Shown here one piece after another: positions 2,863 through 22,099 of a stretch of 24,799 nucleotides of DNA. The translations under genes were made by a program, and so were the position numbers. Origin of the DNA: Baffinella frigidus (lineage: Eukaryota > Cryptophyceae > Cryptomonadales > Baffinellaceae). The notes under the pieces were generated by a model that made no database searches, was not told the DNA's origin, and was given only the letters and a program-made list of their open reading frames with translations. The stretch is taken from positions 513,033-537,831 of the forward strand of contig MU646511.1 of NCBI GenBank assembly GCA_026770585.1. Direction: 5' to 3'. Position 1 is the first letter of the stretch; the number at the start of each line of letters is the position of its first letter.

Positions 2863-5800
2863 ATGGCCACCGTTGTTGAGCAGGCCTTCCTGCTCCAGAC
2901 CATCAACCAGATGGTCGCTCCCCGGACCTCTCACCCCGGCCGTGCCACCCGCCGCATCTCCTTGCCGCCCAAATCTTTAGCCCAGGCCCTGCATTCTGGG
3001 TTCGCAGAGGCATCTGGCAAAAACACAAGTGTTATCTTTCAACTCCCCCATCACACTACTGTCTCCCGCACACATCGCTGCGGCGGACCATGAAGGTTCG
3101 CTCATCAGGCGCGCCTAAAGAGCCGCTGCATGTCGCAGTCCCTCACGCCCGACCTGTTGAGTCAAGGAGGCGTAGCAGATGATGCGCAGAGGACTCCCTT
3201 TTCTGTCTCTGTCTGATCCAGGCTCGCCAATCTGACAAGGCTCATCCACGCTCCAAATTTGACGGATTTGTACTCCGAACGCAGATCGTCAACCTGAGAA
3301 TAGTCCGTCACGCCGACTTGGCAGAGCTAGGATCCGCGCATGCGCGCTGATCCACTAGTCTAAGATCCTCAAGACGAAGCCGGCTCGGCAGGTGGGGACA
3401 GTTGGGTACGACGCCGTGATCATCTGCACGTCGAACATCAACCAGGAGCGGTACTGGCAGAAGCGGCTGGAAGCCACGCGCGGCCAGGCAGCCCGCGAGG
3501 GCGCCCTCATCCTCGCGGTGCCTCCTCCATCTGATCACACCCCAGGGACAACCCTAGGCCCTTTGGCATTTACTACCGTAGGGTCATCGGGAATGAAACA
3601 TACGCGCAGGGGACCCAAAACAGGCATTTTTCTTCCGGTTGCTGGAGCTCCTCCTCCCACCAAGACCAGCGCACACCATCTTTATCCGCGAGCCTCCAAC
3701 TCTCGGTGGCAGACCAAATTGCCCTGCGATGGCCTGGGCACCCCTATACCATTAACTATTAACCATTGACCATGAACCATTAACCCAAATCCCTCAACCC
3801 CAAACCTTAAACCCTAGCAGAAAAAACTGACCCACTCAACCCTACACCCCAAACCCTGAAACTCATTCTTCAAACCCCAAACTCCAAACCCTAACCCCCA
3901 AATCCCAAACAGGTACACGAGGACTGGGCGGCCTCGGAACCCTCTTCACCCTGGATCATGAACCCTAACCTAGCCATCTAAACCCTGCACCCTAAACCCC
4001 AACCTAGGGTTTCGGTCTTCAGTTTTTGGGGTTGGAGGTTACCTTGGTGTCTCCGCCGTGGAGGGTTCACAGCCCGTTGGATTCTTAAACCCTAACCAAT
4101 CCTAAACCTAGTCTCGTTATCTCTAAAAATAGGTGCACGAAGACTGGGGGGCGGATGGCGCGGGCAACGGCCTCGGGACCCTCTACGCCTACACCAAGGT
4201 AACCTCCAAACCCTAAACCCTCAGCCCTCGAGCTCCTAGAAGAGACGCGGGTAAAGCAGTACTATTGCAGCTCAAGTTGTATAGTCCGTGCATGTATTCT
4301 AAAATTGATTTGAATGGATGTAAGGACTATTTAACCTTTCTCCTGCAGTTGTAACATCAATACATCCATTATACGTTTCCGTGCTGGTACAAAACAGGCC
4401 AATTAGCTCTGCGATCGGAAACGGCTGAAGTCGGACGCTTCCATTGAACCCTCGAATCATTGAAAACTATGATTGGGCTAAGTTTGCGTGAGCTTGACAC
4501 CCCCAATGAGTGGCAGGACTGAGGGCTTCCAGGTGCACCCCCTTTCGCTGAAACGATGGGACGCAGTTGCAGTCGCACGGGGGCTGCCTTTCGGCGCGCG
4601 CAAAGGCCCATGAGGACCCGTCGGGGTACACATCTAGTTATATACCCCATGCATCTATTCTATATTCGAAACGAACAATCCTTATTCGAAACGTATAGTT
4701 GAAATGCAGTTATGCAGTCAATACATCCATTATACGTTTCCGTGCTGGTACAAAACATGCCCCTCAGCTCTGCGATTGGAAATCGTTACAATTTTACAAT
4801 AACTTTTCGGGTGCCACATTAAAAACTTCGAGTAGAAAGAAAAATAAATGTAAATGTTCGAATAGATTTGTTTTGAACAGAAATGGGAAGGTCCCTGAAG
4901 GATGTACTTTGAAGTTGGACGCGGGCAAAGGCGCAACAGGACTTCGCAGGCTTCACAGGTATTGATATATAGTCCACAAACCTATTCTGAATGATTTTGA
5001 CCTGCAGTCTGAATTGCTCTCCCCGGCAGGCGCGGGCCAAGGCGCAAAACGATTTCTCGATCGACCTTGACGCCAAGATCGCTGCTGGGTGCGTCCCGGC
5101 TTTTGGGTTTAGAGGCCAGGGTTTTGGTTTAGGGGTTGGGGGTTAGGGTCCTGGTTTAGGGTGTGGGGTTAGGGATGAGGGTCCTGGTTTGACGTTTAGG
5201 GATTCGGGTGCTGTTCTCGATTGACCAACCGTGGATGCCACGATCGCTTCCTGGTGCGTTTCGGCTTTGGGGGTTAGGGTTGGGGGTCCTGGGTTAGGTT
5301 TCTGGTTCAGGGGTTAGGGGCTAGCGTCCTGGTTCAGGATTAGGGATTAAGTTTCTGGTTTTAAGGTTAAGGATTTAGGGGTCAGGGTGCTGGTTTAGAG
5401 TTTAGGGTTCAGGGTGCCCCCCTGCCCCGTTCTTGTTCTCGCGTGTCACTCCCAAGCCCTGAAGCCCCCCCCCCTCCCTCTTTCTCTCGCCCTAAACCCA
5501 AACCATCAACCCTAAACCCTAAACCCTAAACCCTAAACTCTCAACCCTAAACCATAAACCTCAAACCCTAAACCATAAACCATAAACCATAAACCCTACA
5601 CCCTACACCCCACACCCTAAACCCCAAACCCTAACCTAAACCCCAAACCCTAAACTCTAAACCCTTCACGTTAGGTGGTCGGTAGCAATGTTCCACACGG
5701 CAGGAAAGGGCACGCGGCTGGCGCCGCTCCCGGGCAGTGAGAACAACAACAAGCCCGGCGTCAAACTCCCCTCGGTGCGTACCTTGCTCTGCCTCAGTAA

Positions 5801-8800
5801 AACTGGGCTCACCATAAAATCATTTTGGCTGCCCGTGTGTGCTGGTGTTTCTGCTCTAAATGTGTTTTATGGCGAGTCCTGTTTTACTCAGGCAAAGCTA
5901 GAATGCCATCCACCTGCCATTCAGACTGGAGTGTTTTGATCCTCACACCCCAATGTTAACAAATACGCCACATGTTGGTTGACCAGCACGCCATATGTTA
6001 CCGAATGCGCCACATGTCAACAACCACGCCATGTGTAAGCGAATCCGCTGTAAGTTAACAAACACGCTGTATGTCAACAGCCACGGCATATGTCATGAAA
6101 CACGCGATATGTCCACAAACGGTAACACGCGGTATCGCAGGTGGTGGATGGGGCGCCGAAGGAGCTGCCAAAAGAGCTGTCACCATGAAGCCCTAACCCT
6201 GAACCCTAGCCCCTAGGCCCTAGGCCCTAAAGCAAATGACATTGCAGGTGGTGATGGTGGATGGGGCGCCGAAGGAGCTGACGATCCTGGAGGCTGTCAT
6301 CCGCCAGACCAACAGGTTGCCCGAAATCCCGAAACTCCAAACCGTACACTGTAGACCCTAACCCCCTGAATCCTAAACCCTCGCCCTAACCCCTAACTCC
6401 TAAACCCTAAACCCTAAACCCAAACCTAAACCTGAAACCCTAAACCCTGAACCCTAAACCCTGAACCCAAACCCGAAACCCCTCCCGCAGCTACGCGCCG
6501 CACCGCAAGGGACGGTGCTCGGTCTTCTGGGGCGACCAGGTCCAACCCTCAACCTCACACCCGAGACCACCCAGACATCCTCGCTCCGCCTCAATCGGGT
6601 TAGCCGACTACGCTTAAGTTGACACGCTGGGTTCGAGGTACCAATCCGTCAACTTTGGGGAGCACACTCGGGGTTTCGTGCCGTCGGCGGGCACGCCTGC
6701 GAGTGGAGGACACCACGCGGGCATCCTGGCGTGCCTCGGCCCGATTAGCCGACTATGCTTAAGTTGGTGCGCTGGGTTTTCGGTACGAATTCGTCAACTT
6801 TGAGGGGAATGGGCAGGTGTTCGTGCCGTCAGCGGGGACGCCCGCGAGCGGCGCGCACCACGCGGACATCCTCGCGTGCCTTGGCCCGATGCCCTCCGAA
6901 CAGGAGTGGGCCCAGCGTGGCCTCGAAAAGTACGGCCTCATCGCGGTTTGCCCCCCCCCCCCTACACCGCTCCGCGCAAGTCATCTTATCTCGGTTTGAC
7001 GTAGAACATATGTAAGGTGGTCCCCGGTACGGAAAGCGTCAGAAAAGGCGTTGAGAAGACGTGTATGTGGCTCGCGGATACTCTGGCGTGCCTCGGGGCG
7101 ATGCCGACTGAGGGCGAGTGGGCCGAACGTGGCCTCGAAAAGAACGGCCTCATTGCGGTTTGCTCCCCGCCCACACCTCTCTCCTTGAGTCAATCACGCG
7201 TCCCATCTCAGCTCGGCAAATCATACATGTTGCCAGGAACCCCGGTACAACAAGCGCGAGAACGAGCATCCAGAATACGAACAAGCGCGAGAACGAGCAT
7301 CCAGAATAATGCGGCGAGCCCGTAGCCCGAAACGCTGAAGCCGGAACCCGGAGCACAGGTGAACGCGGCAGGCGAAGCAGCGCAAGTGGAGAAGGTCTCG
7401 TACCAGACAGCCACTGCCCTCCTCGCCACCTTCGGCGAGATCGCCAAGGTCCAATCCTCCTCCTCGAAATCCAGGGGGGGCTAATTCCCTCGTCCTCCTC
7501 CTTGGCCCCCTCTTCCCCCGCTTCCTCCTCCCCATCTCTCATCGAGATGCGCATCCTTCTCTGACGACCACCTCCTCAACCTAAGCCCTCAACCTTGATC
7601 CCCACACTGCAAATAGCACCCCCCCCAACCTGGGGGGGAGCTTCCCTCCTCGCCACATTCGGCGAGATCGTCAAGGTGCGAAGTGTCTGGGGGGTTCATA
7701 GCCTCTTCTCACCACCCCCAACCCCTAAACCATGACACCATACACCAACCCAAAACCTGAAAGCCGAAGGCCGAATTCTGGCACCGCCCTCCTCGCCACC
7801 TTGAGCGAGATCGCTAAGGACCAACCCTCCTCCTCGAAACGTACGGGAGCCTAATTTCCTCCTCCGCCTCCACATCCTCTTCCTCCTCCGCCTTATCTTC
7901 CCCCTCTTCCTGCTCCCCTCCTCCACCTCTTCCTCCTCTCATCACCACCACCTCAACCTAAACCCTAAACCTTCATCCCCAAACTGCAAACACCAACCCC
8001 TCCACTCTCACCCAAGTCGGCCCGAGTCTGGGGAACTTCTCGCGGTTAACTTCAAATCCCAACCCCCAAACCCTAAACCCGAAACCCGAAAGCCGGAAGC
8101 CTTATCGCAGGTGGGAGCGAGTCTGGGGAGCTTCTCGCTCTCAGCGACGCTGCTGGCAGCCCTCCTCACCGAGTTTGCCCCCGAAATCACCGCCAAGGTC
8201 ACTCCTAAACCCCAAACACCAAACCCTAAACCCTGAACGCTGAACCCTGAACCCGAAACCCGAAACCCGAAACCCGAAACCCAAAACCCCAGACTCTAAA
8301 CCTGAGACCCTACACACCAGATCCCAAACACCAAACCCTGAACCCTGAATCCAGAACCCTGAACCGTGAACCCTGAATCCAGAATCCTGAAGGCTAAACG
8401 TTACACCGCAAAGCAGGTAGCGAAGCTGGACTCGGACCCGCACTTCTGGATGCCAATGACCCTCTCCGCGGAGGCATACCAATCGGTCCCCAACCCCGAA
8501 ACCCGGGACCCGAAACACCAAATCCAAAACCCGAAACCCGAAACCCGAAACACGAAGCACGAAGCTTCTGGATGCCAATGACCCTGTCCGCTGAGACCGA
8601 CGAATCTGTACCCTCCCCCTCAAACCCTAAACCTTGAACCCAGAGAGTCCTTTATTGGTCGCGGAGGCTTCACCGAAACACGCAACCCGGAACTCGAAAC
8701 CCGCAACCCGAAACTTCTGGATGCCAGTGACCCTGTCCTCCAATGCCTCCGACTCTGTATCGCCCTTCCCCCTCGGGGTTGCGGTGTTTAGGCGGGGGGG

Positions 8801-11800
8801 TGCCGGTTCTTTCTCCCGAGACCCTAACCCCTGGACCCTAAACCCGAATCTCTAAATACCACCTCAGCTTATGGGGCAGAAGAACGACTCGAAGGAGGAG
8901 GCAGCAGTGTCCTACTGATCCCGCATCCCTAACTAAACCCTGATCCCTAAACCCGAAACCCGAAAACCTCGTCAAACCCTGCAAAAGCTAACCGCTGAAC
9001 ATGTCGACAGGTTATGGGGCAGAAGAAGGTATCCAAGGAGGAGGCAGGCGCGCACTACACGCGCATGGCCGCATTCAAGAACGCCTTCTGCGCCCAGGTG
9101 CAGAAACCCTAAACCCCGAAACCCTTAAGAACAAGGCCTTTTGCGAGCGGGTTTGGGGGTGAGGGGTTATGGACCAGGGTGTTGGGGTGCAGTTTTTATG
9201 TTTTAAGGGTTCGGGTGGAGGGGCAGAAGAAGGTGTCACAACTTCTTCGAGCTTCCTGCTCCTCCTTCGGAGGAGGAGGAAGAAGCTCAGTACACCCGCA
9301 TGGCCCCATTCGAGAAGGCTTTTTGCGCCCAGGTTTGGGGGTGCAGGTTATGGAATAGGAGTTAGGCTGTAATTTCTTTCTTCCAGGGTTTACGGGCTAG
9401 GGTGTGGGGCTTAGTGATTAGAGTTTAGGCTGGCATTCAAGACGGCCTTCTGCGACTAGGTCCTCGACCCTACACCCTGCACCCGAAACCCGAAACCCTG
9501 AATCCTGAATCCTGAACCCTCAACCCTCAACCCTCAACCCTACACCCCAAACACGAAACACCAAACCCAAATGCTCTCTCCCTAAACCATCAACCCTATA
9601 TCCTAAACGTTGAACCCTAAACCCTAAACCCTAAACCCCAACCCCTACACAAAAGAGACGGGGAGCAGCGCGAGCAGCGCAGTGGTGGGGTGCATCCTCG
9701 CAGGGAGCAACTGCTACTCATCTGCTTTCTCTCTCTCTCTCGACCTCCCAGGGAGAGAGAGAGAAAGCATTTGGGTTTGGAGTGTGGGGTTCCTAAAGCA
9801 CAAGGTGGGCACGTATTGGCAGACAGGGAGCACGGCGGTGCTGGGGAGCATCGATGCGGGGAGCAACTGCTACTGGTGGGACTACGGCCTCATCAAGCTC
9901 TACCAGAAGAACAACCTCCTCACCACGGTAACCCCGCACGCCCTAATTATGGCGTCAACCTCGTTCTGGTATCCCGTAGGGCGCTACCGTATGCAATACC
10001 GTAGGGTGGTACGGAATGCCGTAAGTAGGTTGACGACGTAAACCCAACATTTTAGAAAATGTAACATAAACATTTTAGAAAAGGCCGCGTTGCCTGGAGT
10101 GGCTGCCCTCTAGTGTCGCACTACCCTTACATAAGTACGTACCGGACGGTGCCGACGATGCAATGTTAAGGGCACGGCCTTCTCAAGCTGTACCGGCAGA
10201 AAAAAATCAATCTCCTTACCACGGTACCTTTCCGCTCCAAAGTTGACGAATTTGTACTACAGGCCTAGATCGTCAACTTGTGAACAGTCCGTGAACCCAT
10301 TTGAATAGTCTGTGAACCCGTTTTATAAGCAGGGTGGCTCGCCCGAGGCAGAAGCGCCGCGGACGTTCCTGGGCCTGGGGACTCGTTTCCGCTCCAAAGT
10401 TGACGGATTGGTACTACAGACCTAGGCCGTCCACTTACGAAAAGTGGGTGAACGAATCAGGTGGACTCTCCGGAAGCGGAGGCGCTGCGGACGTTCCTGG
10501 GCATTCAGTTGGAGCGCACCAAGGGCAGCTCCCTCGGCGCCACTGTCGATGATGTGCGCACCCCGAAACCCGACACCTTCAACCCAACACCAAACACCGA
10601 AGCCCGCATGCCTAAACCTTAAACCCTAGCCCTTGATGCCTCAACGGCTTCGGCCTTTGACAGGCGTCGGTGGTGCTGGCAAGCGACGTCAAGGCAGGGA
10701 CCATCAAGCGCTCGGTCCTCTCGTCGGTCGCGTGCAGCCACGTCGACACCGAAGGCAAAACCCTAACACTATCCCCTAAACCCTAAATCCTAAACCCTAA
10801 ACCCCAAACCCCAAACCCTAAACCCTACACACAAAACCCCAAACCCCAAACCCTAGACACTAAACCCTAAACCCTGAACCCCGAACTCTAAACCCTAAAC
10901 CCTGAACTCTAAACCCTAAACCCTAAATCCTAAATCCTAAACCCTCAACCCTAAACCCTAAACCCCAAACCCTGCACTCCAAATCCCTAAACCAAAACCC
11001 TAAAACCCAGACCATAAACCCCAAACCCTGAACCACAAGCCCCGACCAGGCTCGATCCTGATCAACGTGTGCGCCAAGAGCGTGCGGTACGACCCCCCCC
11101 GCCCTGAACCCTAGACTCTAAACCCTAAACCCCAAACCCTAAACCCTAAACTCTAAACCCCAAACCCCAAACCCTAAACCCTAAACCCTAAACCCTAAAC
11201 CCCAAACCCCAAACCCCAAGTCCTCAAGGGGTTTGCAGCGACCCGACACCACACACCCTAACCCCCAAACTCCGAACTCGAAACGCTACAGGGGCAAGAA
11301 CCTGGTGCTGTACAACGTGGTCGATGACTCGGACGACGGCCTCTCGCTTCCTGACGGCACTGTAAACCCTAAACCCCAAACTAAAAACCATAAACAATAA
11401 ACCACAAACCATAAACCATAAACCATAAACCATAAACACTGAATCGTGAACCCCTACACCTCAAAAAGAAGTCTCGCTCCCGGACGGCGTGGATAGCCCG
11501 GAACCCTAATTTCTGAGCCCTCATCCCGAAACCCGAGAAGTGACACCGGAAACCCAATGAGTCTCTCGCTCTCTCGGTCTCACGGTTCTTCCTGACTGGG
11601 GGGGTGCAGAAACACCGAAACCCTACTCCTGAATCCCGAAACCGGAATTCCGAAACCCGAGTCTCTCTCTCGTTCTTGCGATTCTTTCTGGCTGGGCCGA
11701 ACCCCGAATCCCAAAGCCCGAATTCCGACGCCTCGGTGTGTGTCTCTCGTTCTGACGTGTCTTTATGTCTGGGGAGGCAGGTGCGGGCAGACATCTGCAT

Positions 11801-13117
11801 GCCGGGGAAGGGCAAGGTCCACTCTCAAACCCCAAACCCCAAACCCCGAACCCCAAACCCCAAACCCCAAACTCCTGTTTGAGAATCTTGGCTTCTCCTA
11901 GTACTAGACTGATAGCCCGAGGCTCAGGTTGGCAAACGTGGACAATTTGGCACCACAACCACGCGAGGCCAGAAGAGGCACTATTTCCAAATGTGCTCTA
12001 GTGCCACGCCTAGCTTTGTACTAGAATCGGTCACGTTACCACGATTTGAGCGTGGCAACGAGACCTCCCCGCTGAAACCGCGTTGAGGAACAAATCGGTT
12101 TTAAAAATCGTCAATCGTCCAGCCTGGAATGAAATCGACTCGTAACGTTTCATAGACAGGTGCTGATAACCTGGTGCTCTCGAGGCTCACAACCTGTTGC
12201 TCTGGCAGGTGGTGATGACATCGATGACGTCATCGATCGAGACTGACGGCGGCACCATGTCGAGGCTTACTCCTGCGAACGTCAAGCTACCTTTAGAAAG
12301 CCTCCGACTGGTCTAAACCGCGGTCTTCCGACTGGTCTAAACTTCCGACTGGTTTAAACTGTGTAGTAATCTGGGTCCGTGGCAGGTGGTGATGACGTCA
12401 TCAATGGAGACTGACGGCGGCACCATGTGGAAGGTCCGCATGGACGGCAACGATATGTCTTTCGAGGAGGTGCGTGCATCCAGAAAGCCAACGTTGAAGG
12501 AGCACTTGTCTGGACGCGACGTCCGTGCTTCCAACTTTACAATTGATGACTTTACAACCTATATAGATCAATTATTGTAATGTTCTGTACCATACTACGG
12601 GGAATCACTGGATGGCAACCGACACCTTATCCCCACCCAAATGGGCGGGGACGTGACCCGGGCTTGCCCCTGCCAAAAGGCATTTTACCCAAGAAACAAA
12701 TCATTTTTTTCCAAAAGTGGCAATTTGCGAAGAAAAATTGTGAACTGATCGCAATTCCCGAATTCTAGACAGTCGTTCCGCGTAGTAGTGACTTGCAAGT
12801 AAGGCCTCCTGCAACCTTGGCTCTATCCCGAGTGGGGCCAATCTGTCCCGAGGCGGCATCCAGAAAGCTAACCTTCAATGCGGACTTATTTGGACCTGAC
12901 TCGGGAACAAAACAGTTCAATAATAATTTTAAAGTACTTCTAAAGCCGTCTATTCCTGCGCGAGTGACGTGACTTGGCACGAGTCACGTGACGTCTGACG
13001 GGTCACGTGACCGGGCAGGCGTACAATGCCAACGGCTCCGTGGACCTGCTCGAGGCCCAAAAGATGCTTGCTGAGGTTACGACTCCCCCCCCCTCAACCC
13101 CAAACCCTAAGCCCTAA
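2863..13117 (+). CDS. Sugar-1-phosphate nucleotidyltransferase-like protein, about 20 exons
   Basis: Exons: 2863 to about 2970 (end unresolved), 3392-3517, 4133-4198, 5030-5088, 5675-5774, 6248-6315, 6491-6539, 6817-6945, 7359-7448, 8111-8197, 8417-8485, 9011-9097, 9805-9927, 10461-10553, 10664-10754, 11050-11086, 11292-11361, 11781-11816, 12386-12469 and 13019-13117. From exon 2 onward they give 520 residues in one frame with compatible phases. Exon 2 has a Rossmann-like strand (YDAVIICTSN). Exon 3 has GAGNGLGTLYAY. Exon 5 has HTAGKGTRLAPLPG followed by KPG, the nucleotide-binding loop of sugar-1-phosphate nucleotidyltransferases. Exons 7-8 give FWGDQVFVPS, whose Asp is a likely metal ligand. 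Exons 15-17 (VLSSVACS, ILINVCAKSV) resemble a beta-helix tail. Intron 15 appears to be GC-AG (GAAG|GCAAAA). Exon 2 could start at 3359 or 3365 instead; exon 1 may end at a donor near 2913 or 3028. The protein ends in NPKP, encoded by telomere-like sequence. The superfamily call is good; the sugar and nucleotide are unknown. Confidence 0.72.
3195..3330 (+). repeat. Dispersed element of about 135 bp, copy 1
   Basis: It starts with CTGTCTCTGTCTGATCCAGG, contains CGCTCCAAATTTGACGGATT and GTCAACCTGAGAATAGTC, and ends in GGCAGAGCTAG. It lies in the first intron of the nucleotidyltransferase gene and matches the copies at 21545, 23890 and elsewhere. Confidence 0.75.
3745..4230 (+). repeat. Telomere-like CCCTAAA-rich intron sequence with a shadow of exon 3
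   Basis: Degenerate CCCTAAA/CCCCAAA heptamers surround exon 3. At 3913-3951, after an AG, a decayed copy of exon 3 appears: GTACACGAGGACTGGGCGG against GTGCACGAAGACTGGGGGG at 4133. The central part encoding GAGNG is missing, so the copy cannot replace the exon. A short block at 4012-4045 has the opposite (G-rich) orientation. Confidence 0.7.
4239..4960 (+). repeat. Tandem duplication of exon 4 start plus flanking intron, decayed
   Basis: Sequences like the start of exon 4 (GCGCGGGCCAAGGCGCAAAA at 5030) recur at about 4241, 4591 (GCGCGCGCAAAGGCCCATGA) and 4919 (GACGCGGGCAAAGGCGCAAC). A 60-bp intron block containing TCAATACATCCATTATACGT is repeated at 4357-4420 and 4718-4783, an offset of 361 bp. 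None of the three copies has an intact reading frame and donor. The intron therefore grew by tandem duplication that included the exon border. Confidence 0.65.
5095..5674 (+). repeat. Intron 4: G-rich half followed by C-rich half of telomere-like heptamers
   Basis: From 5100 to 5420 the plus strand carries degenerate TTTAGGG/TTAGGGG. From 5490 to 5670 it carries CCCTAAA, including runs of perfect units at 5513-5540. The two halves are complementary in kind, so the transcript could fold into a long imperfect stem that would bring the donor at 5089 close to the acceptor at 5674. The first half contradicts the usual orientation seen in this gene. Confidence 0.8.
5953..6125 (+). repeat. Degenerate minisatellite, about 22-bp unit, in intron 5
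   Basis: About eight units resemble AACAAACACGCCATATGTCA, with variants such as CACGCCATGTGTAAGCGAAT and CACGCTGTATGTCAACAGCC. The array ends about 15 bases before an exon-6 shadow. It is unrelated to the telomere-like heptamers. Confidence 0.75.
6141..6168 (+). repeat. Shadow of exon 6 (5' end)
   Basis: After a good acceptor (TATCGCAG), GTGGTGGATGGGGCGCCGAA repeats the start of exon 6 at 6248 with a 6-nt deletion, then diverges. It lacks the rest of the exon and a matching donor. Confidence 0.75.
6190..6480 (+). repeat. Telomere-like CCCTAAA tracts flanking exon 6
   Basis: Degenerate CCCTAAA, CCCTGAA and CCCTAGG heptamers fill 6190-6235 and 6340-6480, on both sides of exon 6 (6248-6315). 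The second tract leads directly into the acceptor of exon 7. Confidence 0.85.
6592..6808 (-). repeat. Dispersed element, copies 2 and 3 (minus orientation), with a shadow of exon 8 between them
   Basis: Two reversed element copies start near 6592 and 6738 (TAGCCGACTA at 6601 and 6746, an offset of 145 bp). Between them, 6673-6744 repeats the first half of exon 8 (encoding FVPSAGTPASG, then HHAGILACLGP). The repeated unit is therefore element plus exon. The second element copy ends about 10 bases before the acceptor of the intact exon 8 at 6817. Confidence 0.75.
7061..7157 (+). repeat. Shadow of exon 8 (downstream copy with donor)
   Basis: The 3' half of exon 8 is repeated and open (encodes LACLGAMPTEGEWAERGLEK, then NGLIA) and keeps the donor GCG|GTTTGC. 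The 5' half has lost about 30 nt and is out of frame relative to the intact exon. It could serve as an alternative 3' part only if a new acceptor were used. Confidence 0.75.
7644..7818 (+). repeat. Two shadows of exon 9 (3' end)
   Basis: Copies of the end of exon 9 (CTCCTCGCCACCTTCGGCGA at 7419) occur at 7644-7675 and 7779-7818. The first keeps the donor (AAG|GTGCGA); in the second the donor reads AAG|GACC and is lost. Downstream intron sequence (TCCTCCTCGAAA) follows both the real exon and the second copy, so exon end and intron start were duplicated together. Confidence 0.8.
8013..8045 (+). repeat. Shadow of exon 10 (5' end)
   Basis: GAGTCTGGGGAACTTCTCGC repeats GAGTCTGGGGAGCTTCTCGC of exon 10 (8111-8197) about 100 bp upstream. 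The acceptor is degraded (CCAAG|TCGG). Confidence 0.75.
8045..8400 (+). repeat. Telomere-like heptamers with a CCCGAAA block
   Basis: The sequence flanks exon 10. From 8248 to 8285 the unit is uniformly CCCGAAA (TTTCGGG on the other strand); elsewhere it is CCCTAAA or CCCTGAA. The same CCCGAAA variant clusters at 8525-8550. Confidence 0.85.
8565..8756 (+). repeat. Two shadows of exon 11 (3' half)
   Basis: Copies at 8565-8607 and 8714-8756 encode FWMPMTLSAETDES and FWMPVTLSSNASDS, against FWMPMTLSAEAYQS in exon 11 (8417-8485). Both are open, in the same phase, and followed by GT. Neither has an acceptor in the right phase, so they are probably decayed duplicates rather than alternative exons. 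Confidence 0.75.
8868..8918 (+). repeat. Shadow of exon 12 with in-frame stop
   Basis: After an AG, the start of exon 12 is repeated (encodes LMGQKKNDSKEEA-like residues; seen LMGQKNDSKEEAAVSY) and then meets TGA at 8915. Inclusion in the mRNA would truncate the protein. The intact exon 12 starts at 9011. Confidence 0.75.
9124..9460 (+). repeat. Three further shadows of exon 12 (3' end)
   Basis: Copies of the exon-12 end lie at 9124-9150, 9217-9332 and 9431-9459, each followed by GT. The middle one is nearly full length but has an insertion forming a CTCCTCC...GGAGGAG hairpin. The first two share the downstream intron start GTTTGGGGGTG. The last reads TTCTGCGACTAG, which gives a stop. Confidence 0.75.
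9462..9652 (+). repeat. Telomere-like CCCTAAA tract in intron 12
   Basis: CCCTAAA, CCCTCAA, CCCTGAA and CCCGAAA units are arranged in short runs of one variant each before the shadow of exon 13. Confidence 0.85.
9653..9720 (+). repeat. Shadow of exon 13 (first half)
   Basis: GAGACGGGGAGCAGCG and GGGAGCAACTGCTACT match the exon-13 sequences around 9821 and 9859. It is followed by a CT/GA inverted simple repeat at 9728-9765. Confidence 0.65.
10171..10223 (+). repeat. Shadow of exon 13 (3' half with donor)
   Basis: GGCACGGCCTTCTCAAGCTG through CTCCTTACCACG repeats the end of exon 13 (9884-9927) and keeps the donor ACG|GTACCT. Dispersed element copy 4 begins exactly at this donor. Confidence 0.75.
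10224..10460 (+). repeat. Dispersed element, copies 4 and 5, with a shadow of exon 14 between them
   Basis: Two truncated element copies (CGCTCCAAAGTTGACGAATT near 10231 and CGCTCCAAAGTTGACGGATT near 10390) bracket 10333-10380, which repeats the start of exon 14 (GCGGACGTTCCTGGGC) behind its own acceptor AAGCAG. Copy 5 ends at the acceptor of the intact exon 14 (10461). The duplicated unit is again element plus exon. Confidence 0.75.
10755..11220 (+). repeat. Dense CCCTAAA telomere-like tract, introns 15-16
   Basis: Near-continuous CCCTAAA and CCCCAAA heptamers fill this stretch, broken only by the 37-nt exon 16 (11050-11086). This is one of the densest such tracts in the window. Confidence 0.9.
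11362..11780 (+). repeat. Intron 17: CCATAAA variant block, exon-17 shadow and pyrimidine-rich tandem units
   Basis: The block 11384-11440 is a local CCATAAA variant. At 11469-11490, GTCTCGCTCCCGGACGGC resembles the end of exon 17. Three diverged units of about 85 bp follow, each with a TCTCTCG/TTCTT pyrimidine stretch (near 11553, 11661 and 11742). Confidence 0.6.
11817..12385 (+). repeat. Intron 18, with a shadow of exon 19 and a small tandem repeat
   Basis: After a short CCCCAAA tract (11825-11873) the intron is ordinary sequence with a hairpin near 12033-12060. At 12209-12258, behind the acceptor CTGGCAG, the start of exon 19 is repeated (GTGGTGATGAC through GACTGACGGCGGCACCATG) with a small insertion. 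Three TTCCGACTGGTCTAAAC-like units follow at 12303-12360. The intact exon 19 starts at 12386. Confidence 0.7.
12476..12932 (+). repeat. Diverged direct duplication inside intron 19
   Basis: GCATCCAGAAAGCCAACGTT at 12476 and GCATCCAGAAAGCTAACCTT at 12856 begin two related blocks of about 75 bp, 380 bp apart. No exon is recognised in either. Confidence 0.55.
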
Positions 13118-13773: not shown

Positions 13774-14012
13774 GAGGACGCAGCCCCAGGACGCGCCCCT
13801 CCCGGGTAGATACATCTGGGCTATTACGGGGTTAGATCCGCCTCTGCCCTTAGCAGGCACCGGTGACTTTGGGAATCAGTCCAACGTTGATTTTCACCCG
13901 GGAAACACGAGTCTAGAATTTCTCCCGGAAATCCGGTGGCTTCTCAGTGGAGAGGTTTCCCCAAACGTTTGAAATGAACCACTGTGCTGATCCTGCTCGT
14001 GTCCCTCACGCC

Positions 14013-14115
14013 AAAAGAAACCGCGTCCCCCTAGGACCCTACAGTAGGACCATGCCTAGAGCCCTACGGTGGTCCTAGGGGGGGGGCGGTTTCTTATGAG
14101 CGAGGTACCCCTGTA
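14013..14115. mobile_element. Fold-back element B, left end truncated
   Basis: It shares the AAGAAACCGC...CCCTAGGACCCTACAG core and the right end GAGCGAGGTACCCCTGTA with element A. The left terminal 18 bp are absent or degraded. Confidence 0.75.
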
Positions 14116-14298
14116 AGGGGAGAGGCTCGTCCGCGCCTGTCAGGACGCAGTCCGAGGACGGGCCTGTGTGCACAGAGAGAGACCTTGATTACCGCCCACA
14201 CGCCCGCCACGATGAGACAACCGACTAAGGCAGCAGAGGTAGAAAGGGCGCGTGTCCCTGACGCGACGCGCGCGTCTGTGTGCGCGTGTCCTGGCAAG

Positions 14299-15353: not shown

Positions 15354-15589
15354 GACAGCGCCCTCACAGACCGGGCAGCCATCGGTGCCTTTCTCCCCCG
15401 TATTTCCGGGGGAGATCTAGACGTTTGGTGTGTTTCCCGGGTGAGAATCAAGGTTGGACCGATTCCCGAAGGCACTGGTGACTGCTAAGTGGTCAGGCGG
15501 ATCTCCCCCCGTAATAGCCCAAATATATCTACCCCGAATACATCCGGGATAAATCTCTTCGATCACGATCGTGCGGAGGCCTCAGGGTT

Positions 15590-15840
15590 TGGCGATCTGG
15601 TTTCGGGTTAAGGGGTTAGGGCGAGTTTCAGGTTTATGGTTCAGGGTTCAGGGTGCAGGGTGCAGGGTGTCGGGGTCAGGGTTTATGGTATACAAAGGGT
15701 TCAGGGTTCAGGGTTCAGGGACCAGGGTTCAGGTTTCAGGGTTCAGGGTTCAGGTTTCAGGGTTTCAGGATTTCGGGTTCAGAGTTTTGGGTTTAGTTTT
15801 AAGGTTTAGGGTTCAGGTTTGAGAGTTTCGGGGAGTTGTT
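15590..15840. repeat. Telomere-like tract (TTCAGGG-dominated) after the oxidoreductase stop
   Basis: It consists of TTCAGGG, TTTCGGG and TTTAGGG units on the plus strand. The tract continues into the last exon and supplies its final codons and stop. Confidence 0.85.
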
Positions 15841-16681
15841 TCAGGGTTTCGGGTTCCGGGTTTTATGTTGAGGGGCGGCGACCTCGATCACGATTTTGCC
15901 CTTGGCCCGCCGAGAATCCAGCAGGTTGTAGGCCCCCTTGACCCCCGCTTCTGTGAAAGGAAAGGGGCCCTTCTTGTCGATGATTACCTGGTGTTCAGGG
16001 TTTCGGGGTTAGGGTTTAGGGTTAGGGACTAGGGTTGAGGGTGTAAGGGTTTGGGTTTGGAGGCGGTTGTAGGCCCGTTTGACCCCCGCCTCCGTGAAGG
16101 GAAAGGGCCCTTCTTGTCGTCGTGAAGGGAAAGGGCCCGTCTTGTCGACCTTCGCCTCTTTCCGTGCGGGGGTGAGGGTTTGGTTTTAGGGAATTGGGTT
16201 TCGGGGTTAGGGATTAGGGGTGAAGGGTTGGAGGTTAGGGGTTAGGGGTTGGGGGTGAGGGTTAGAGGTGGGGGTTTGGTTTTAAGAGTTTGGGTTTCGG
16301 GGTTAGGGGTTAAGGGTTAGGGTTAAGGGGTTAAGGGTTGGGGGTTAGGGGTTGGGGGTGAGAGGCTAGGGGCTAGGGGTTTCGGGTTACGGATTACGGG
16401 TTAGGGGTGACGGATTCATGATTTAGGATGTAAGGTGAATGCGCGTGCAGGTGGCGAGGCCGCCCGCCCTCAGGAGTGCAGAGTTGTGAACCCCTAAACC
16501 TTGAAACCTGAACCCCGAAACCCAAAACCTGAACCCTAAACCCTCAACCCAAAGCCTAGAGCCTAAACCCTTACCTTGAACTTGCCCTCGTCGAACTGTT
16601 TGAAGATTTCGCGGTTCGTCTTTCCGCCAGGCCCCTGGTTTAGGGTTCAGGGTTTAGGGTTTGAGGTTTAGATTTTAGGGT

Positions 16682-16727
<46 letters not shown>

Positions 16728-19217
16728 TGTTTAGGGTTTAGGGTTTAGGGTTTAGAGTTTAGGGTTTAGAGTTTAGGAAGATTTCGCGGTTGGTCTTTTC
16801 CTTGGAGCCCATGTCGCACAAGAGAGTTCAGGTACTAGTCTTACTAGGCAAGGCCTTTACTCAAGGAAATACATGCTGGCCATGCTTGGTTCGATCCTTA
16901 ATAAAAGCACTCGTCTCTATTCAGAAAGAGAGCTTTATTACAAACAACACGGCCTGACGATATGCATGTACCCCCATTGAGGCGGTGTCTGCGCAGGGGC
17001 GCCGAGAGAGGTCATGTGCATTCTAAATGTTGTGTACACAACAGTGTACAGGGGCGCAACCGCCCCATCTCCAGGGAAGGAAGAGAGCGAGTCCCAAACC
17101 CTAAACCCTAAACATTGAACCCCAAGCCAGGCTAAGCTCCACGAGGACGCTATAAGAGATGGGAAGCAGACGAACACGTTCGGTGTCAACCCTAAAACCT
17201 AACGCATAAATCATAAACCGCAAGAGGCCCCGGCACCACACTCTTATGATCCCCCCAGGAGCAGGGTTCTGGGTTTCAGACCGCGCCGGAGATGAGCATG
17301 TGCTCAGCGGGAGAGGAGAAGCCAAACTGCAAGTGGTGCTTCATCCTCTCACTCCTCGCCTCCTCGCCTCCCGCACGCTTCATCCTCTCACTCCTCGCCT
17401 CCCGCACGCGTGTTCGCCCTATATCCTACTCCCTACACCCTACACCCTATACCCCAAACACAGAGTAGGGTTCAAGGTTCAGAATGCAGGGTTTAGTGAG
17501 GGTGTAGGGTGTAGGGTGTAGGGTGTAGGGTGTGAGACCGCGCCGAAGATGAGGATGTGATAGGCGGGAGAGAAGAAGCGAAACTGAAAGTGGTGCCACA
17601 TCCCCGGAAGCATGAACCCCAGCATCTCCCACAGGCTCTGGGGTTAGGGTGTAGGGTTTAGGGGTTAGGTTTTAGGGGTTAGGGTTTAGGGTTTAGGTTT
17701 TAGAGTTCGGGGTTTAGGGGTTTGGGGTTTGGGGGTTGGGGTTTAGGGTTTGGGGATGAGGGTTGAGGGTTGAGGGTTGAGGGATTGGGGGTGAGGGTTT
17801 AAGGCTTAGGCAGACCGTGGCCTTGATTCTCCATTCTTTCCAGACAGACGCGATCCAGCGCCCCCCAACCGACTTTGACTTGATCACCTAGGTTTACGGT
17901 TCAGGGTTTAGTGTTCCGGGTTTAGTGAGACCAGACAAATTAGTCAAGGCCAAAATGTGTGGGCACCAGGCTACTCCTAGTTCTGTCTCGGTCTATTTGC
18001 GCTCACCAAATTGGTGACACCGGGCTTTTCACGCTCCAAAGTTGACCGATTTGTACAGCGCACCCTGCACGTCAACTTAAGAAAAGTCACGAAAGGCTCT
18101 CGGAGTTTGGAGTTTAGGGTTTGGGATTTAGGGTTTAGGGAGTGGGGGTTGAGATCTGGGGTTCGAGGTTTGGGGTTTGTGGTTTGTGGTGTGGGGTGTG
18201 GTGTTTAGGGTGTGGGTTTACCTTTTGCGCGTACGCGCGTTCGTAGGATGCGTAGCCCTCTGCATGGTCGAAAATCTGCGGAGGGGGCGCCCGTTATTTC
18301 TTGAACCTGAACCCGGAACCCTAAACCCTCAACCAAGCACCGTTCAATGCTTGTCGCTCGAACCCCTAAACCTTGAACGCTAAACCAAGCACCCGGCATT
18401 GCTTGACTAAAACCCAAACCCAGCACCCTTCATTGCACGACGCTCTAAACCCTAAAACCTAAACCCTAAACCCCAAATCAAGAACCCCTCATTTCATGAC
18501 ACCCTGGTGTCGGGGGGACAGAGAGAGGGTGGGGGGTGGGGGGGAAGAGCGCGAGGTGGGGGGGGCAGAGCGGAGAGCAGAGCAGAGGAGAGAGGAAGAG
18601 CGAGAAAGCGGGACATGTAGGAGAGACAGAGACGAGGCTTACCTGTGTCTCAGTCTATTTTTTAAGAGAGAGAGAGAGCGAGAAGGCTCCCAAAGGCGCG
18701 GGAAGTGCACCACGTCCAAGAGCTGGAGCGTCACCTCCTCGTCCTCCCACCAGTTGCTCGCCAACCTCTGTCTCAGTCTATTTGATTTCACCAATCTGGT
18801 GAGACCAGGCTCTCTCCCGCTCCAAAGTTGACGAATCTGTACCACACACCCATCATGTCAACTTAAGAAGAGTACCACGTCGAAGGGCTGGAGCTTGAAC
18901 TCCTCGTCCTCCCACCAGTTTGTCTCCTGGTAGTTGATCGCCTTGTCCACCCCTGTTTTCGGGGTTAGGTTGCGGGTCTAGGGTTGAGAGTCTCGGGTCT
19001 AGGGCCACACGGTAGACTACGAGAACACCAAGACCCCCGGAATCCGGGGGTTACGTGACCAAGTTTGTACTTGAAAAGGGCTGAAATGAGACATTGGACA
19101 AGGCTCCTTTCAAAATGAAACCCTCGTAGTCCACCGTGTGGTTAGGGTGCAGGATAATGGGGCTATGCATTACCAAGCTTCGGCATCCCGAGAAAAGAGC
19201 GAGAAAGAGAGAGAAAG

Positions 19218-19271
<54 letters not shown>

Positions 19272-22099
19272 TACCAAGGTTGGTGAGGAAGGCGACGTCA
19301 GAGGACGTGGCGGCCACGTACGACGCTCCCGCGTTCCTTGCCATCTGATTCACGTTTCGTTGGTAGGGTTTAGGGTTGAGGGTTCAGGGTTCAGGGTCCG
19401 CGGACCTTGCCATCTGGTTTGAGGTTCAGGTTAAGGGTTGGGTTTTTGGGTTCGGGATTTAGGGGTTTAGGGTTTAGGGTTTAGGGTGTAGGGTTTAGGG
19501 TGTAGGGTTTAGGGTTTAGGGTTTAGGAGTTAGGGGTTAGGGGTTAGGGTTTCGGGTTTCGGGTTTCGGGTTTCGGGTTTAGGGTTTAGGGTTTTGGGGT
19601 TCTGGTGTAGGGTTGAGGGTGTAGGATTCAGGGTGCAGGGTGCAAGGTGCAGAGTGTAGGGTTCAGGGATTAGGACCCCAACCCCTGCGTTGCAGTGCCA
19701 AAGTTGAGCCATTCCTCTCTCGAGTTAGCCACGTCCCCAACCCACCTTGGGACATGACGAGGGTCTGGGAAGCAACCTGAATGACCATGGAGCCCACCCC
19801 GCCACTTCCGCCGAGCACCAGCACCCGATCGCCTGCCAGCGCAGCGTCGCACGTCAACAAGCAATGTAAATATGTACCAGCAACCTGACCCATCACTTCG
19901 AAAGCAGGTTGCGCACCACCTTCTCCTGTGAAAGCACCTCCCACAGCACGCGCGTGGTTGAGGGAGCAGGGTTCAAGGCGCACCTCACACCTCACTTTTT
20001 CCGGCGGAAGCACCCCACACGGCACGCGCGATGCCCTCACCCCCCACAGCACACAGGGGGATACCTGGCGTGACCTTGGCGATGTCGATGGCGCACCTTG
20101 CCCACTGAGCGCTGTTTGCCAGGGCCGCGCTCTGCGTACGATCAAATACAAAGTTCAATGCGTTCAAATGAAATGTATGTAAGCGTCTCAAGCTTCCTTC
20201 GCACGGAAGGGTGAGGTGTCTGCCTATGTTGGGGGCATTGAAACCCTCAAGGACCTAGAGGCTTCCTGAAGACGGCTCGCTGATGTGAGAAGAGGAAGCG
20301 CTCGTACTCCTGGGTTTCGTATATTTGCGACGCGGAGCACCCTTCGTTGCATCACGCGCTAGGGTCTACGCTCGGGCTATGCCAAAGAGCATAGGACCAC
20401 CCTAGGGGCGGTGTGTGTCCTGGCTCGCGACTAACCCCTGTACTCCAGGCCGTCGAGGGCGGCGCTCTGCAAGACGGGGCGGGAGGGAAAAGGGACCTGA
20501 AGGTGATCAGCATTGGCGGGCTTAGGCGCACACATCTTAGTGTTCACCTGCGAAAGGGTTTCGGCATGAGAGGCACAGTACGACTAGCTCTGTCGCAATC
20601 TATTTGGGCCCACCAATTTCGTGAGCCCGTGCTCATTTTCGCTCCAACGTGGACGGGGTTGTACCGCCAACCCAGGATGTCAATTTGAGAATAGTCTGAC
20701 AGTGAACCCAAGTGAGGCAGAGGGTTGGGGGTTACCAGCATGTATTCAGCGAGGCCCCCCACGCCCGCCTCGTCCCAAGTCCCCACCACGCAATCCCCTA
20801 CCTGTGCAGGACATCACGTGCGAGGCCCCTTCACTTTAGCCGTCCGACCTTCACTTGCGAGCCCTCTCTGGACGCATTGAGTTATGGTTGGACGTGATAA
20901 GTTGGACGTGATAAGTTGAATCAAGTCTTGATCGTGTGCAGGAAAACTCTCACGTGACGCTCGCCACCCTTCGTCACTCGCATTCCCGAAATGATAAACC
21001 CTAAACCTCCAACCTACTTCCTCATCACCCAAAATCCTAAGCCCTAAACAGGGGGGTTTGGGATTTGGGTTTAGGATTGAGGGTAAAGGGTCCAGAGTTT
21101 GGGATGTTAAGGGTTGAGGGTTTAGGGTTTACGGTTTACGGTTTACGGTTTAGGGTTTAGGGTTTAGGGTTTAGGGCTTAAATTAGGGTTCAGGGTTTAG
21201 GGTTTAGGGTTTAGGGTTTAGGGTTTAGAGTTTAGGGTTTAGGGTTTAGGGTTTATGGTTTAGGGTTCAAATTAGGATTTAGAGTTTAGGGTTTAGGGTT
21301 TGGGGTTTGGGGTTTAGAGTTTAGAGTTTAGGGTTTAGAATTTAGGTTTAGGGTTTAGGCTTTAGGCTTTAGAGTTGAGGGAACCTGGGCACAAACCCTC
21401 TCCCGTCGCTGGCATCACCCGAAACCAAAAACCCTGAACCTTCTACCTATTCCCGTTGCACAGCACCCCAAACCCTAAAACCTAAACCCTAAACCTCCCA
21501 CGTCGAACTGTGGCCCAACAAAGGCAGCTGAAGAGTTGTAATTTTGTCTCAGTCTGTTTGGGTCCACCACTTTGGTACCACTTTGGTGAGCCCGGGCTCG
21601 TTCGGCCCCAACGTTGACGAATTTGTACCACCGACCCAGCATGTCAACTTGAGAACAGCCGGTCAACCCGAGTGGGGCAGGGCTAGGAGTTGCGGTGGGG
21701 CGCTGCCAAGGGTCCCGAATTTGGTGGGTTGAGTAGAGGGACAGCGCTGCATGAAATGGGAAGGGTCGGGGCATGCGTGTTGGGGTGTTCGCCCCAACAC
21801 GCACTTCCCTGGGGGTCCACCTTGAACGCCAGGTCTTTCTCGTTCTCGTCAACCTCGAGCACGGTACCGCAAACGTCCCCACACGGAACGTACGGGAACG
21901 GCGGCAGCTTGATGGGGGCGCCGCTCACGTCGCCGCTCATTCGCCGCTGGTCCCCCGGCGTAAGAGACACGGCGTGGACCTTGAGGAGCATTTGGCCCTG
22001 GCCTTTCGTGAGGACCGGCCGCTCGCGAGTGTCGGTCATCTGCAGGACGTCGTTCGGCTTGCCGTAGCCGGTAATCTGCACAGACTTCATCGCGGGCAT
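15841..22099 (-). CDS. Zinc-independent MDR oxidoreductase (quinone-oxidoreductase-like), 12 exons
   Basis: Exons in reading order: 22099-21821, 20801-20736, 20547-20497, 20131-20075, 19884-19777, 19344-19275, 18952-18876, 18275-18222, 17887-17816, 17637-17539, 16634-16575 and 15987-15841. All use AG/GT and join in phase to 378 residues plus TGA, a normal length for the family. The GroES-like N-terminal domain covers roughly residues 1-115 (YGKPNDVLQ, VSLTPGDQRRMSG, GDVCGTVLEV, GGLAEYM). The NAD(P)H-binding fold follows, with VLVLGGSGGVGS near residues 172-183 as its nucleotide loop and VIFDHAEGY after it. The Cys/His ligands of zinc-dependent alcohol dehydrogenases are not seen. It resembles quinone oxidoreductase and reticulon-4-interacting-protein types; the substrate is unknown. 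An in-frame ATG at 22183 would add 28 residues with a hydrophobic stretch, possibly a targeting peptide. The ends of exons 9 and 11 are the least certain. The C-terminus KTRNPKP comes from telomere-like sequence. Confidence 0.85.
16000..16420. repeat. G-rich telomere-like intron with nested shadows of exon 12
   Basis: TTAGGGG/TTTAGGG variants fill intron 11 of the oxidoreductase gene. At 16064-16149 the start of exon 12 is repeated, and within that copy the stretch GTGAAGGGAAAGGGCCC occurs twice, a duplication inside a duplication. The intact exon lies at 15841-15987. Confidence 0.75.
16630..16813. repeat. TTGAGGG/TTTAGGG tract and a shadow of exon 11
   Basis: About seven TTGAGGG units in a row (16681-16728) are followed by TTTAGGG. 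At 16777-16813 (minus strand) the part of exon 11 encoding KTNREIF is repeated, with extra upstream sequence encoding MGSKE. The copy lacks the exon's 3' half. Confidence 0.75.
17282..17346 (-). repeat. Shadow of exon 10 (3' half with donor)
   Basis: On the minus strand it encodes HHLQFGFSSPAEHMLISGA, against HHFQFRFFSPAYHILIFGA in exon 10, and keeps the donor GCG|GTCT. It lies about 200 bp downstream of the real exon in the transcript. Confidence 0.8.
17430..17535. repeat. Facing ACCCTAC and GTAGGGT heptamer runs
   Basis: ACCCTAC-type units (17430-17455) face GTAGGGT-type units (17501-17532), making an inverted repeat next to the donor of exon 10. Confidence 0.7.
17640..17805. repeat. Telomere-like G-rich tract in intron 9
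   Basis: TTTAGGG and TTAGGGG variants, then a TTGAGGG block (17757-17785), lie between exons 9 and 10 of the oxidoreductase gene. Confidence 0.85.
17981..18093 (+). repeat. Dispersed element of about 135 bp, copy 6
   Basis: It contains TCTGTCTCGGTCTATTTGCG, the stem CTCACCAAATTGGTGA, CGCTCCAAAGTTGACC and GTCAACTTAAGAAAAGTC. The 3' end of the consensus is missing. Confidence 0.8.
18300..18490. repeat. CCCTAAA tract with repeated CAAGCACC...CATTGC units
   Basis: Four units of about 50-60 bp (CAAGCACCGTTCAATGCTTG, CAAGCACCCGGCATTGCTTG, CAGCACCCTTCATTGCACGA, CAAGAACCCCTCATTTCATG) are separated by CCCTAAA-like heptamers. The C-rich strand here is opposite to the usual orientation for this minus-strand gene. 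Confidence 0.7.
18528..18620. repeat. Purine-rich low-complexity tract
   Basis: GGGGTGGGGGG and AGAGCGGAGAGCAGAG-type sequence with no coding signal. A shorter GA run lies at 18666-18680. Confidence 0.7.
18711..18755 (-). repeat. Shadow of exon 7 (3' half with donor)
   Basis: On the minus strand it encodes NWWEDEEVTLQLLDV, against NWWEDEEFKLQPFDV in exon 7 (18952-18876), with donor GTG|GTGC. The dispersed element lies between copy and exon. Confidence 0.8.
18765..18875 (+). repeat. Dispersed element, copy 7, abutting the exon 7 donor
   Basis: It contains CTGTCTCAGTCTATTTGATT, TCACCAATCTGGTGA, CGCTCCAAAGTTGACGAATC and GTCAACTTAAGAAGAGTAC. Its last two bases are the reverse complement of the GT donor of exon 7, so on the transcript the intron starts with the element. 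Confidence 0.8.
19196..19271. repeat. GA/GAAA microsatellite next to the exon 6 donor
   Basis: GAGAGAAA units grade into pure GA and end two bases from the donor of exon 6 (19275). The transcript therefore reads GTAC followed by a long CT tract at the 5' end of the intron. Confidence 0.9.
19360..19680. repeat. Telomere-like tract in intron 5 with a shadow of exon 6
   Basis: TTTAGGG, TGTAGGG and TTTCGGG (19549-19578) occur in short homogeneous runs. At 19398-19413 (minus strand), after an AG, ATGGCAAGGTCCGCGGA repeats the start of exon 6 (ATGGCAAGGAACGCGGGA). Confidence 0.8.
20448..20466 (-). repeat. Shadow of exon 4 (5' end)
   Basis: Behind an AG acceptor, AGCGCCGCCCTCGACGGCCT resembles the start of exon 4 (AGCGCGGCCCTGGCAAACAG). 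It is too short and diverged to be used. Confidence 0.5.
20589..20735 (+). repeat. Dispersed element, copy 8, next to the exon 2 donor
   Basis: It contains CTGTCGCAATCTATTTGGGC, CCACCAATTTCGTGAGCC and GTCAATTTGAGAATAGTC, and ends GAGGCAGAGGGTTGG. It ends within about 12 bases of the donor of oxidoreductase exon 2 (20736). Confidence 0.75.
21000..21500. repeat. Long telomere-like tract in intron 1 of the oxidoreductase gene
   Basis: From 21050 to 21380 the plus strand is mostly TTTAGGG, with a TTTACGG block (21127-21147). Short CCCTAAA stretches lie at each end (21000-21030, 21465-21495), so the intron also has facing orientations. Confidence 0.9.
21545..21690 (+). repeat. Dispersed element, copy 9 (near consensus)
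   Basis: It contains TTGTCTCAGTCTGTTTGGGT, a 10-bp internal duplication of the stem (CCACTTTGGT twice), GTGAGCCCGGGCTC, AACGTTGACGAATTTGTACC, CAGCATGTCAACTTGAGAAC and AACCCGAGTGGGGCAGGGCT. Confidence 0.8.

Follow-up and report, generated by a model that had tools for sequence, protein, structure and literature searches.

The lengthening of introns is usually attributed to transposons. Segments can also be duplicated within genes, and such internal gene duplication is said to have been described by Gao and Lynch in 2009. For the potato RdRp gene, a tandem genomic duplication across one intron-exon boundary has been outlined (PMC4974935). Here, we analysed a stretch of 24,799 nucleotides from the cryptophyte Baffinella frigidus, called the window throughout (C209:513033-537831, on a 555-kb contig of an assembly of 382 Mb in 1,364 contigs). 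Two genes in this window, a nucleotidyltransferase-like gene (NT; 2863..13353, plus strand) and a zinc-type oxidoreductase gene (ADH; 15582..22090, minus strand), have exons that are accompanied by truncated copies of themselves in the neighbouring introns, referred to below as shadows. As in the potato gene, the duplicated segment appears to cross exactly one intron-exon border and one of the two copies carries a partial exon. Unlike in that gene, where a new intron arose from the duplication, the copy has been absorbed into an existing intron, and this applies to 16 of 33 exons.

Partial exon copies and their arrangement

To detect such copies, heptamer repeats were masked and the 33 exons were aligned one by one, in both orientations, to the non-exon sequence up to 800 bp from them. 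As controls served 100 dinucleotide shuffles and introns at a distance of more than 2.5 kb. On the sense strand, 16 of the 33 exons exceeded every control (NT exons 3, 4, 6, 8, 9, 10, 11, 12, 13, 14, 17 and 19; ADH exons 7, 10, 11 and 12), compared with 1 of 33 on the antisense strand (NT exon 19). A preliminary description of the window had named the same twelve NT exons, had noted that the copies keep the coding strand and had asked for a comparison with shuffled introns; all of this holds, with a weak copy in the case of NT exon 17 (score 24, shuffle maximum 22). Of the six ADH exons that it listed, exons 7, 10, 11 and 12 were recovered and exon 6 is marginal, with a score of 22 alone (shuffle maximum 24) and 29 together with its splice junction. 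For ADH exon 4, no partial copy was found in exon-versus-flank alignments with or without 40-bp flanks.

For a catalogue, exons with 40-bp flanks were searched against sequence up to 900 bp away, with a score cut of 26. This revealed 27 partial copies with identities between 0.80 and 1.00, in line with the earlier impression that the copies differ in age. Their lags range from 69 to 370 bp with a median of 158 bp. Counting a splice junction as included if homology runs at least 2 bp past the exon border, 15 copies contain one junction (the 3' site in 5, the 5' site in 10), 12 contain none and 0 contain both, so that the statement that the copies usually hold one junction is only roughly right. 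The masked window as a whole contains 27 local direct repeats, compared with 0.00 expected under an order-2 Markov null (20 replicates). Sixteen of them touch an exon and 11 have no exon contact, which indicates that local duplication is not confined to exons. The share of bases in local direct repeats is 31% for NT exons and 21% for unmasked NT introns, and 15% and 12%, respectively, for ADH. Seven local inverted repeats were also detected, which are palindromes or the pair of one palindromic element. Finally, for 16 of the 33 exons the best match lies nearby rather than in any distant intron, which is not the pattern of a dispersed family of the introner type.

The copies follow a simple geometry. 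With the centre of the matched part as reference, 26 of the 27 have the 5' part of the exon upstream or the 3' part downstream of the intact exon. The lone exception is a downstream match to bases 6-23 of NT exon 12, which lies just before the downstream copy of bases 26-87. This rule would follow if a segment U had been duplicated head-to-tail with one breakpoint in the exon and the intact exon had survived: at the right end of U, the exon would leave its 5' part upstream, and at the left end its 3' part downstream. We defined 20 events at 16 exons, counting each side of an exon once (12 upstream and 8 downstream). None of the 20 produced a whole-exon copy by the criterion of two splice sites, compared with 7.1 expected from random breakpoints at the lags and exon lengths observed (P=6e-5); a simulation with random lags and exons gave P=7e-6. 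The sequence between the copies was also aligned to the outer flank. Full-period homology, equalled by at most 0.4% of random stretches, was found in about 8 of the 20 events (NT 4 downstream, NT 8 upstream and downstream, NT 9, NT 14, NT 19, ADH 7 and NT 12 downstream, the last through its lag-204 piece only). The summed lags correspond to 2,667 of 8,904 bp of NT intron (30%) and 806 of 5,161 bp of ADH intron (16%).

Together, these data suggest that the shadows are local head-to-tail tandem duplications of about 70-370 bp, with breakpoints scattered over exons and introns, a reading to which we assign a probability of roughly 0.77. With a breakpoint inside an exon, the order a-U-b would become a-U-U-b. 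The intact exon would survive across the edge of one unit, and the other unit would keep just the portion of the exon that U covers, along with no more than one splice site. Such a truncated copy would probably not be recognised as an exon; the extra unit would be removed with the intron, leaving the protein unchanged and the piece free to decay. Where a duplication takes in an entire exon and its two splice sites, it would instead be spliced in and then lost by selection. Selection through splicing is thus the simplest reading of the scarcity of whole-exon copies. The net outcome may be that introns grow by exon-anchored tandem duplication, alongside the turnover of heptamer arrays. The process is presumably still active. 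The earlier proposal of a continuing process that makes exon-border duplications which then decay is in this respect supported by the spread of identities from 100% down to 80%, by changes at invariant residues and by the recurrence at other loci described below; its attribution to heptamers is not.

In NT, the direct copies are on the plus strand. Exon 3 has an upstream copy of its 5' part with the 3' splice site at 3911..3932 (lag 220, identity 0.86). In addition, an inverted copy of its 3' border region (4165-4217) lies at 4024-4079 and was found only with heptamers unmasked. Exon 4 is flanked on both sides, by its 5' part at 4920..4945 (lag 111, 0.85) and by its 3' part with the 5' splice site at 5214..5258 (lag 160, 0.82, full-period homology). 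The upstream copy of the 5' part of exon 6 at 6142..6167 is identical at 26 of 26 positions (lag 113). The 5' part of exon 8 is present in two upstream copies within 6566..6745 (6637-6745 and 6566-6584) that indicate a period of about 145 bp, and its 3' part with the 5' splice site follows downstream at 7073..7162 (lag 212, 0.80, full-period homology). Two downstream copies each were found for the 3' parts of exon 9 (7641..7856, comprising 7641-7677 and 7782-7856) and exon 11 (8565..8738, comprising 8565-8613 and 8714-8738), and one upstream copy for the 5' part of exon 10 (8023..8043, lag 95, 0.95). Exon 12 has the largest set. Its 5' part with the 3' splice site lies upstream at 8865..8904 (lag 143, 0.88), a near-whole copy of bases 6-23 and 26-87 lies downstream at 9220..9334, with the 5' but without the 3' splice site and interrupted by a hairpin-like insert, and a second downstream copy at 9433..9461 contains the 3' end with the 5' splice site (lag 362, 0.86). 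For exon 13, the 5' part is found upstream at 9672..9718 (lag 156, 0.81) and the 3' part with the 5' splice site downstream at 10174..10226 (lag 290, 0.87). The 5' part of exon 14 lies upstream at 10333..10374 (lag 127, 0.86, full-period homology). The weak downstream copy of the 3' part of exon 17 at 11472..11488 also exceeds the distant-intron maximum of 20 and falls below the score cut of the catalogue. The 5' part of exon 19 with its 3' splice site lies upstream at 12203..12263, in two aligned pieces with lags of 168 and 177.

The ADH copies are all on the minus strand. The marginal copy of exon 6, comprising its 5' part and the 3' splice site, lies upstream of the exon at 19398..19419. 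The 3' parts of exons 7 and 10, each with the 5' splice site, are found downstream at 18702..18755 (lag 165, 0.87) and at 17278..17346, the latter corresponding to extra residues in the public protein P0122 that are absent from P0121. Upstream copies of 5' parts are found for exon 11 at 16779..16798 (lag 175, 0.95) and, twice, for exon 12 within 16065..16148 (16065-16119 and 16122-16148, lags 140 and 168).

Recurrence, divergence of the copies and rival explanations

To determine whether shadows occur elsewhere in the genome, a check that the preliminary description had proposed, we drew a systematic sample of twenty 10-kb stretches, of which 13 consisted wholly and 6 partly of N and 1 was complete (L010). 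This locus encodes a P4-type ATPase (PDB 6k7g, E=3.5e-35 with joined predicted exons); the joined exon pieces matched no Pfam family. Of its 46 exon sides, 11 gave sense and 0 gave antisense matches. The pool outside the window comprised 15 loci, 6 from the systematic sample, 4 chosen for heptamers and 5 that extend such heptamer loci or L010 or adjoin the window. The pool excluded L001, which is the window itself, the mostly-N loci L015 and L018, stretches that were masked throughout, and three loci contained in others (L002, L003 and L008). Sense matches were found at 50 of 271 exon sides and antisense matches at 5 of 271. No sense match occurred in L026, L027, L013, L006 or L007, the last of which yielded no predicted exon. 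After pairs had been dropped in which the target was a higher-scoring predicted exon, 40 pairs remained, of which 36 are concordant with the geometry (of 39 partial), 3 are discordant and 1 is a whole copy (L034). Absence from other genes had been named as grounds for rejection; this check, run in part, gave no such grounds.

Several observations weigh against the tandem duplication reading. The 143 exons used outside the window were predicted ab initio by a finder trained on NT and ADH themselves, and the homology check of these exons covers part of L010 only. At a lower cut, this finder recovered 20 of the 21 NT exons with 28 predictions. Outside the window, the antisense control is non-zero, and the 3 discordant pairs among the 40 have the wrong polarity (L029, L032 and L034). 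Within the window, the intron part of the presumed unit gives no convincing alignment in 12 of the 20 events, though the exon part is 81-100% identical. Decay along two lineages together with heptamer turnover may have erased the similarity, or it may never have existed. NT 6 nevertheless fits poorly, its copy being fully identical and its intervening sequence not alignable. If the near-whole copy of NT exon 12 is counted as whole, the test for missing whole exons weakens to P=9e-4. Finally, the ratio of third-position differences between exons and shadows is 3.14 (bootstrap 2.3-4.3), compared with about 1.5 in simulations of a copy that is dead from birth next to an exon evolving at synonymous sites.

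The differences behind this ratio, with one copy per exon and side, are 25/280, 21/278 and 73/282 for codon positions 1, 2 and 3. L010 shows a similar pattern (8/105, 6/106 and 25/103, ratio 3.66), and L021 has no third-position excess (2/46, 1/45 and 1/46). All 39 partial outside pairs, L010 included, give an ordinary ratio (57/624, 50/624 and 78/618), with most frames taken from predicted exons. As candidate causes of the excess we consider exchange between diverged haplotypes, synonymous sites in exons that change faster than introns, and a period of coding use. Other causes could be rejected. Detection bias yields a ratio of 1.52-1.56 at all ages in simulation. Composition or CpG effects do not account for it either, as GC and AT sites behave alike at position 1 (9.0 and 8.3%) and position 2 (7.4 and 7.5%) and CpG is not raised there; at position 3, CpG sites are raised (32 vs 21%) and AT sites more still (22/46). 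A uniformly diverged template is at odds with NT 6 and the downstream copy at L021 3359, neither of which has third-position differences. In-frame use through alternative splice sites is not reflected in the lags, 9 of 27 being multiples of three, the share expected by chance.

At the protein level, 6 of the 42 non-synonymous changes in NT shadows fall on residues that are invariant in all 38 aligned homologues. Measured against these homologues, the 42 changes are better tolerated than random ones (P=0.0002); a BLOSUM comparison of the same changes showed no effect (P=0.52). In several cases it is the exon rather than the shadow that departs from the family state. Changes were too few for the use of transition/transversion spectra. 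Two proteins matched by the ADH product bear on coding use. P0121 should derive from spliced RNA, since it combines an intact frame with contigs far shorter than the ADH gene, and it contains no extra residues from any ADH shadow. P0122 holds the shadow of ADH exon 10 as 39 extra in-frame residues (region 17278-17425); it is encoded on a 607-kb contig and is thus presumably a gene model.

Telomere-type heptamers fill 31% of the NT and 39% of the ADH intron sequence, and in 11 of the 20 events 40% or more of what lies between the copies is heptamer. The preliminary description had suggested unequal exchange or template switching between these intronic arrays as the cause of the duplications. 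This now appears very improbable: one breakpoint lies inside unique exon sequence, and arrays in the flanking introns that exchanged with each other would have duplicated entire exons, a class that is missing. Nor are the joints enriched, the 20 bp joined at exon-internal breakpoints having a heptamer content of 0.24 compared with 0.32 in random intron (probability of a null value at least as high, 0.85). Between the copies, the content in NT resembles that in the rest of the intron (0.33 vs 0.30), though in ADH it is higher (0.61 vs 0.36). Alternatively, telomeric repeats could have entered staggered double-strand breaks close to exon borders, with fill-in duplicating the border on both sides, an option considered for the 12 events that lack convincing intron homology. 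Horse telomeric insertions with direct target duplication, reported at 3 of 66 loci in PMC7215372, offer a precedent, and the heptamer contents between and outside the copies of NT 6 (0.40 and 0.00), ADH 11 (0.99 and 0.05) and ADH 12 (0.88 and 0.30) would suit it, as would the inverted border copy of NT exon 3 at 4024-4079, given that the same source mentions inverted duplications at some horse loci. However, the contents inside and outside differ by no more than 0.15 in 12 of the 20 events, NT 14, ADH 7 and NT 8 downstream have 0-7% heptamer between the copies, and the breakpoint joints overall are not heptamer-rich. Insertion of this kind is therefore improbable as a general cause, though single pairs fit it. 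We take the heptamers to reflect a process parallel to the duplication of exon pieces.

If the shadows were dying mutually exclusive or alternative exons, formerly used whole, this would account for the third-position excess in the window and in L010 and for the extra residues of P0122. Such an origin is nonetheless highly unlikely, as 0 of the 27 window copies keep both splice sites and, had whole exons decayed, more should remain than the half that faces away from the real exon. In addition, lags divisible by three are no more frequent than by chance, P0121 lacks the shadows and the pooled outside pairs have an ordinary codon-position ratio. False local duplications might also result from divergent haplotypes merged in a short-read assembly. 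AllPathsLG and Illumina libraries were used to assemble the published Baffinella sp. CCMP2293 genome (PMC9756366), and third-position differences resemble those between coding alleles. Yet some copies bear changes at positions where the homologues never vary, the lack of whole-exon copies would not be expected of an artefact, and the pattern recurs on several contigs, so that we give this explanation hardly any credence. It may also be speculated that sustained short tandem duplication throughout the genome is a main builder of introns, that copies made by exchange with diverged homologues (or temporary coding selection) explain the third-position bias, and that splicing lets only pieces with one splice site pass. 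We consider this extended version of the tandem duplication reading rather unlikely.

Gene models and other repeats

NT was modelled with 21 exons and 20 introns in a single open frame of 528 amino acids, with GT at 19 of the 20 donors, GC at 1 and AG at 20 of 20 acceptors. A version of 517 amino acids, without exon 1 and with an exon 13 six residues longer, matched P0001 with 69% over the full query (E=5e-234). The protein belongs to a large family of at least 1,053 proteins at E up to 0.001 (7,995 candidates scored). It matched no Pfam family, and no relative was found in viral contigs; Rfam and tRNA scans gave no matches. ADH was modelled with 12 exons in one open frame (22090-15841), and 11 of 11 introns are GT-AG. 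Its protein matches P0121 (356 amino acids, from contigs of at most 1,858 bp) with 99% and P0122 of Baffinella frigidus with 88% in the search and 97% in aligned columns; the next match reaches 44%. P0121 and the ADH model agree up to KIVIE, after which P0121 ends with IAKP. This C-terminus implies a last exon of 15 bases at about 15596-15582 (minus strand) and a modelled exon 12 (15987-15841) that is about 42 bases too long. The overrun lies outside exon bases 8-64, the part matched by the counted shadows. Twelve of the 20 NT exons after the first (3392-13353) start with GT straight after the AG of the 3' splice site, as do 4 of 11 in ADH, an arrangement that resembles recursive splice sites or former insertion sites. 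On the plus strand, 22440-24799 contains the start of a putative third gene with a segment that by eye resembles a basic leucine zipper, DSDVAKNRRRALKNCISAAR, followed by SREKKRKYVHDLEQAF.

The heptamers are strongly oriented. CCCTAAA lies mostly on the coding strand, with 415 vs 27 occurrences in NT, 322 vs 82 in ADH and 125 vs 3 in 22091-24799 (plus strand). Of 16 loci examined, 13 could be called, and 11 of these share the bias (10 of 12 without L002, which lies inside L031); L013 and L021 show the opposite. CCCTAAA contains neither GT nor AG and TTTAGGG contains both, so the bias likely results from selection against cryptic splice sites. A dispersed element centred on CCAAAGTTGACGRATTTGTAC occurs in nine copies with at most 3 mismatches, in both orientations and inside and outside genes (3253, 6638(-), 6783(-), 10237, 10394, 18036, 18822, 21608 and 23952). 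It has no exact match in viral or prokaryote genome collections, and repeat-pattern scans of viral and genome contig collections found no relative. A family of palindromic elements is located at 13652-13774, 14012-14118 and 22913-23125, with ends that by eye resemble GGTACCTCGCTCATAAGAAAC. For context, the published genome of Baffinella sp. CCMP2293 comprises 534.5 Mb with 41.1% repeats and that of Guillardia theta 87.2 Mb (PMC9756366).

Comparison with known systems

The type of event proposed here is already known. Its density, clean geometry, missing whole-exon class and share of intron length appear unusual, judging from general knowledge rather than from a measured comparison. Internal gene duplication likewise concerns segments within genes; here the density, with 20 visible events over 33 exons, appears to be what differs. 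A literature search of titles and abstract openings found no description of such a pattern in a cryptophyte.

If the tandem duplication reading is correct, the locus makes a source of intron growth directly readable, with duplications detected in NT that sum to 30% of its intron sequence. Age, direction and breakpoint are recorded in the copies themselves, and through the missing whole-exon copies one could measure, in a natural genome, how splicing filters duplications. The example of P0122 is a warning that other gene models of Baffinella frigidus may include such pieces as exons.

Several described systems share features with the shadows. Rogers-type intron gain, in which an AGGT-containing exon segment is duplicated (outlined in PMC4974935), is likewise a local tandem duplication inside a gene. 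It differs in that here no new intron has arisen and the copies lie within introns, not at both intron ends. Direct repeats at or near intron-exon borders are also the subject of PMC11782384. The repeats reported there measure 4-30 bp, flank introns and are read as insertion scars; those described here are longer, bear exon sequence and are located inside introns. As at the interstitial telomeric insertions of the horse (PMC7215372), telomere-type repeats stand beside direct duplications, but unlike there the heptamers are not specifically found at the joints. Introner-type elements (cf. PMC9860276) form a dispersed family that itself constitutes the intron, whereas the exons here match their own surroundings. 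The shuffling of LRR exons by ectopic recombination in Tetrahymena (PMC6564038) resembles our case in the repeated exon-level duplication inside genes. In the account given there, however, whole 90-bp exons are duplicated and stay coding, whereas the introns of NT and ADH contain truncated pieces.

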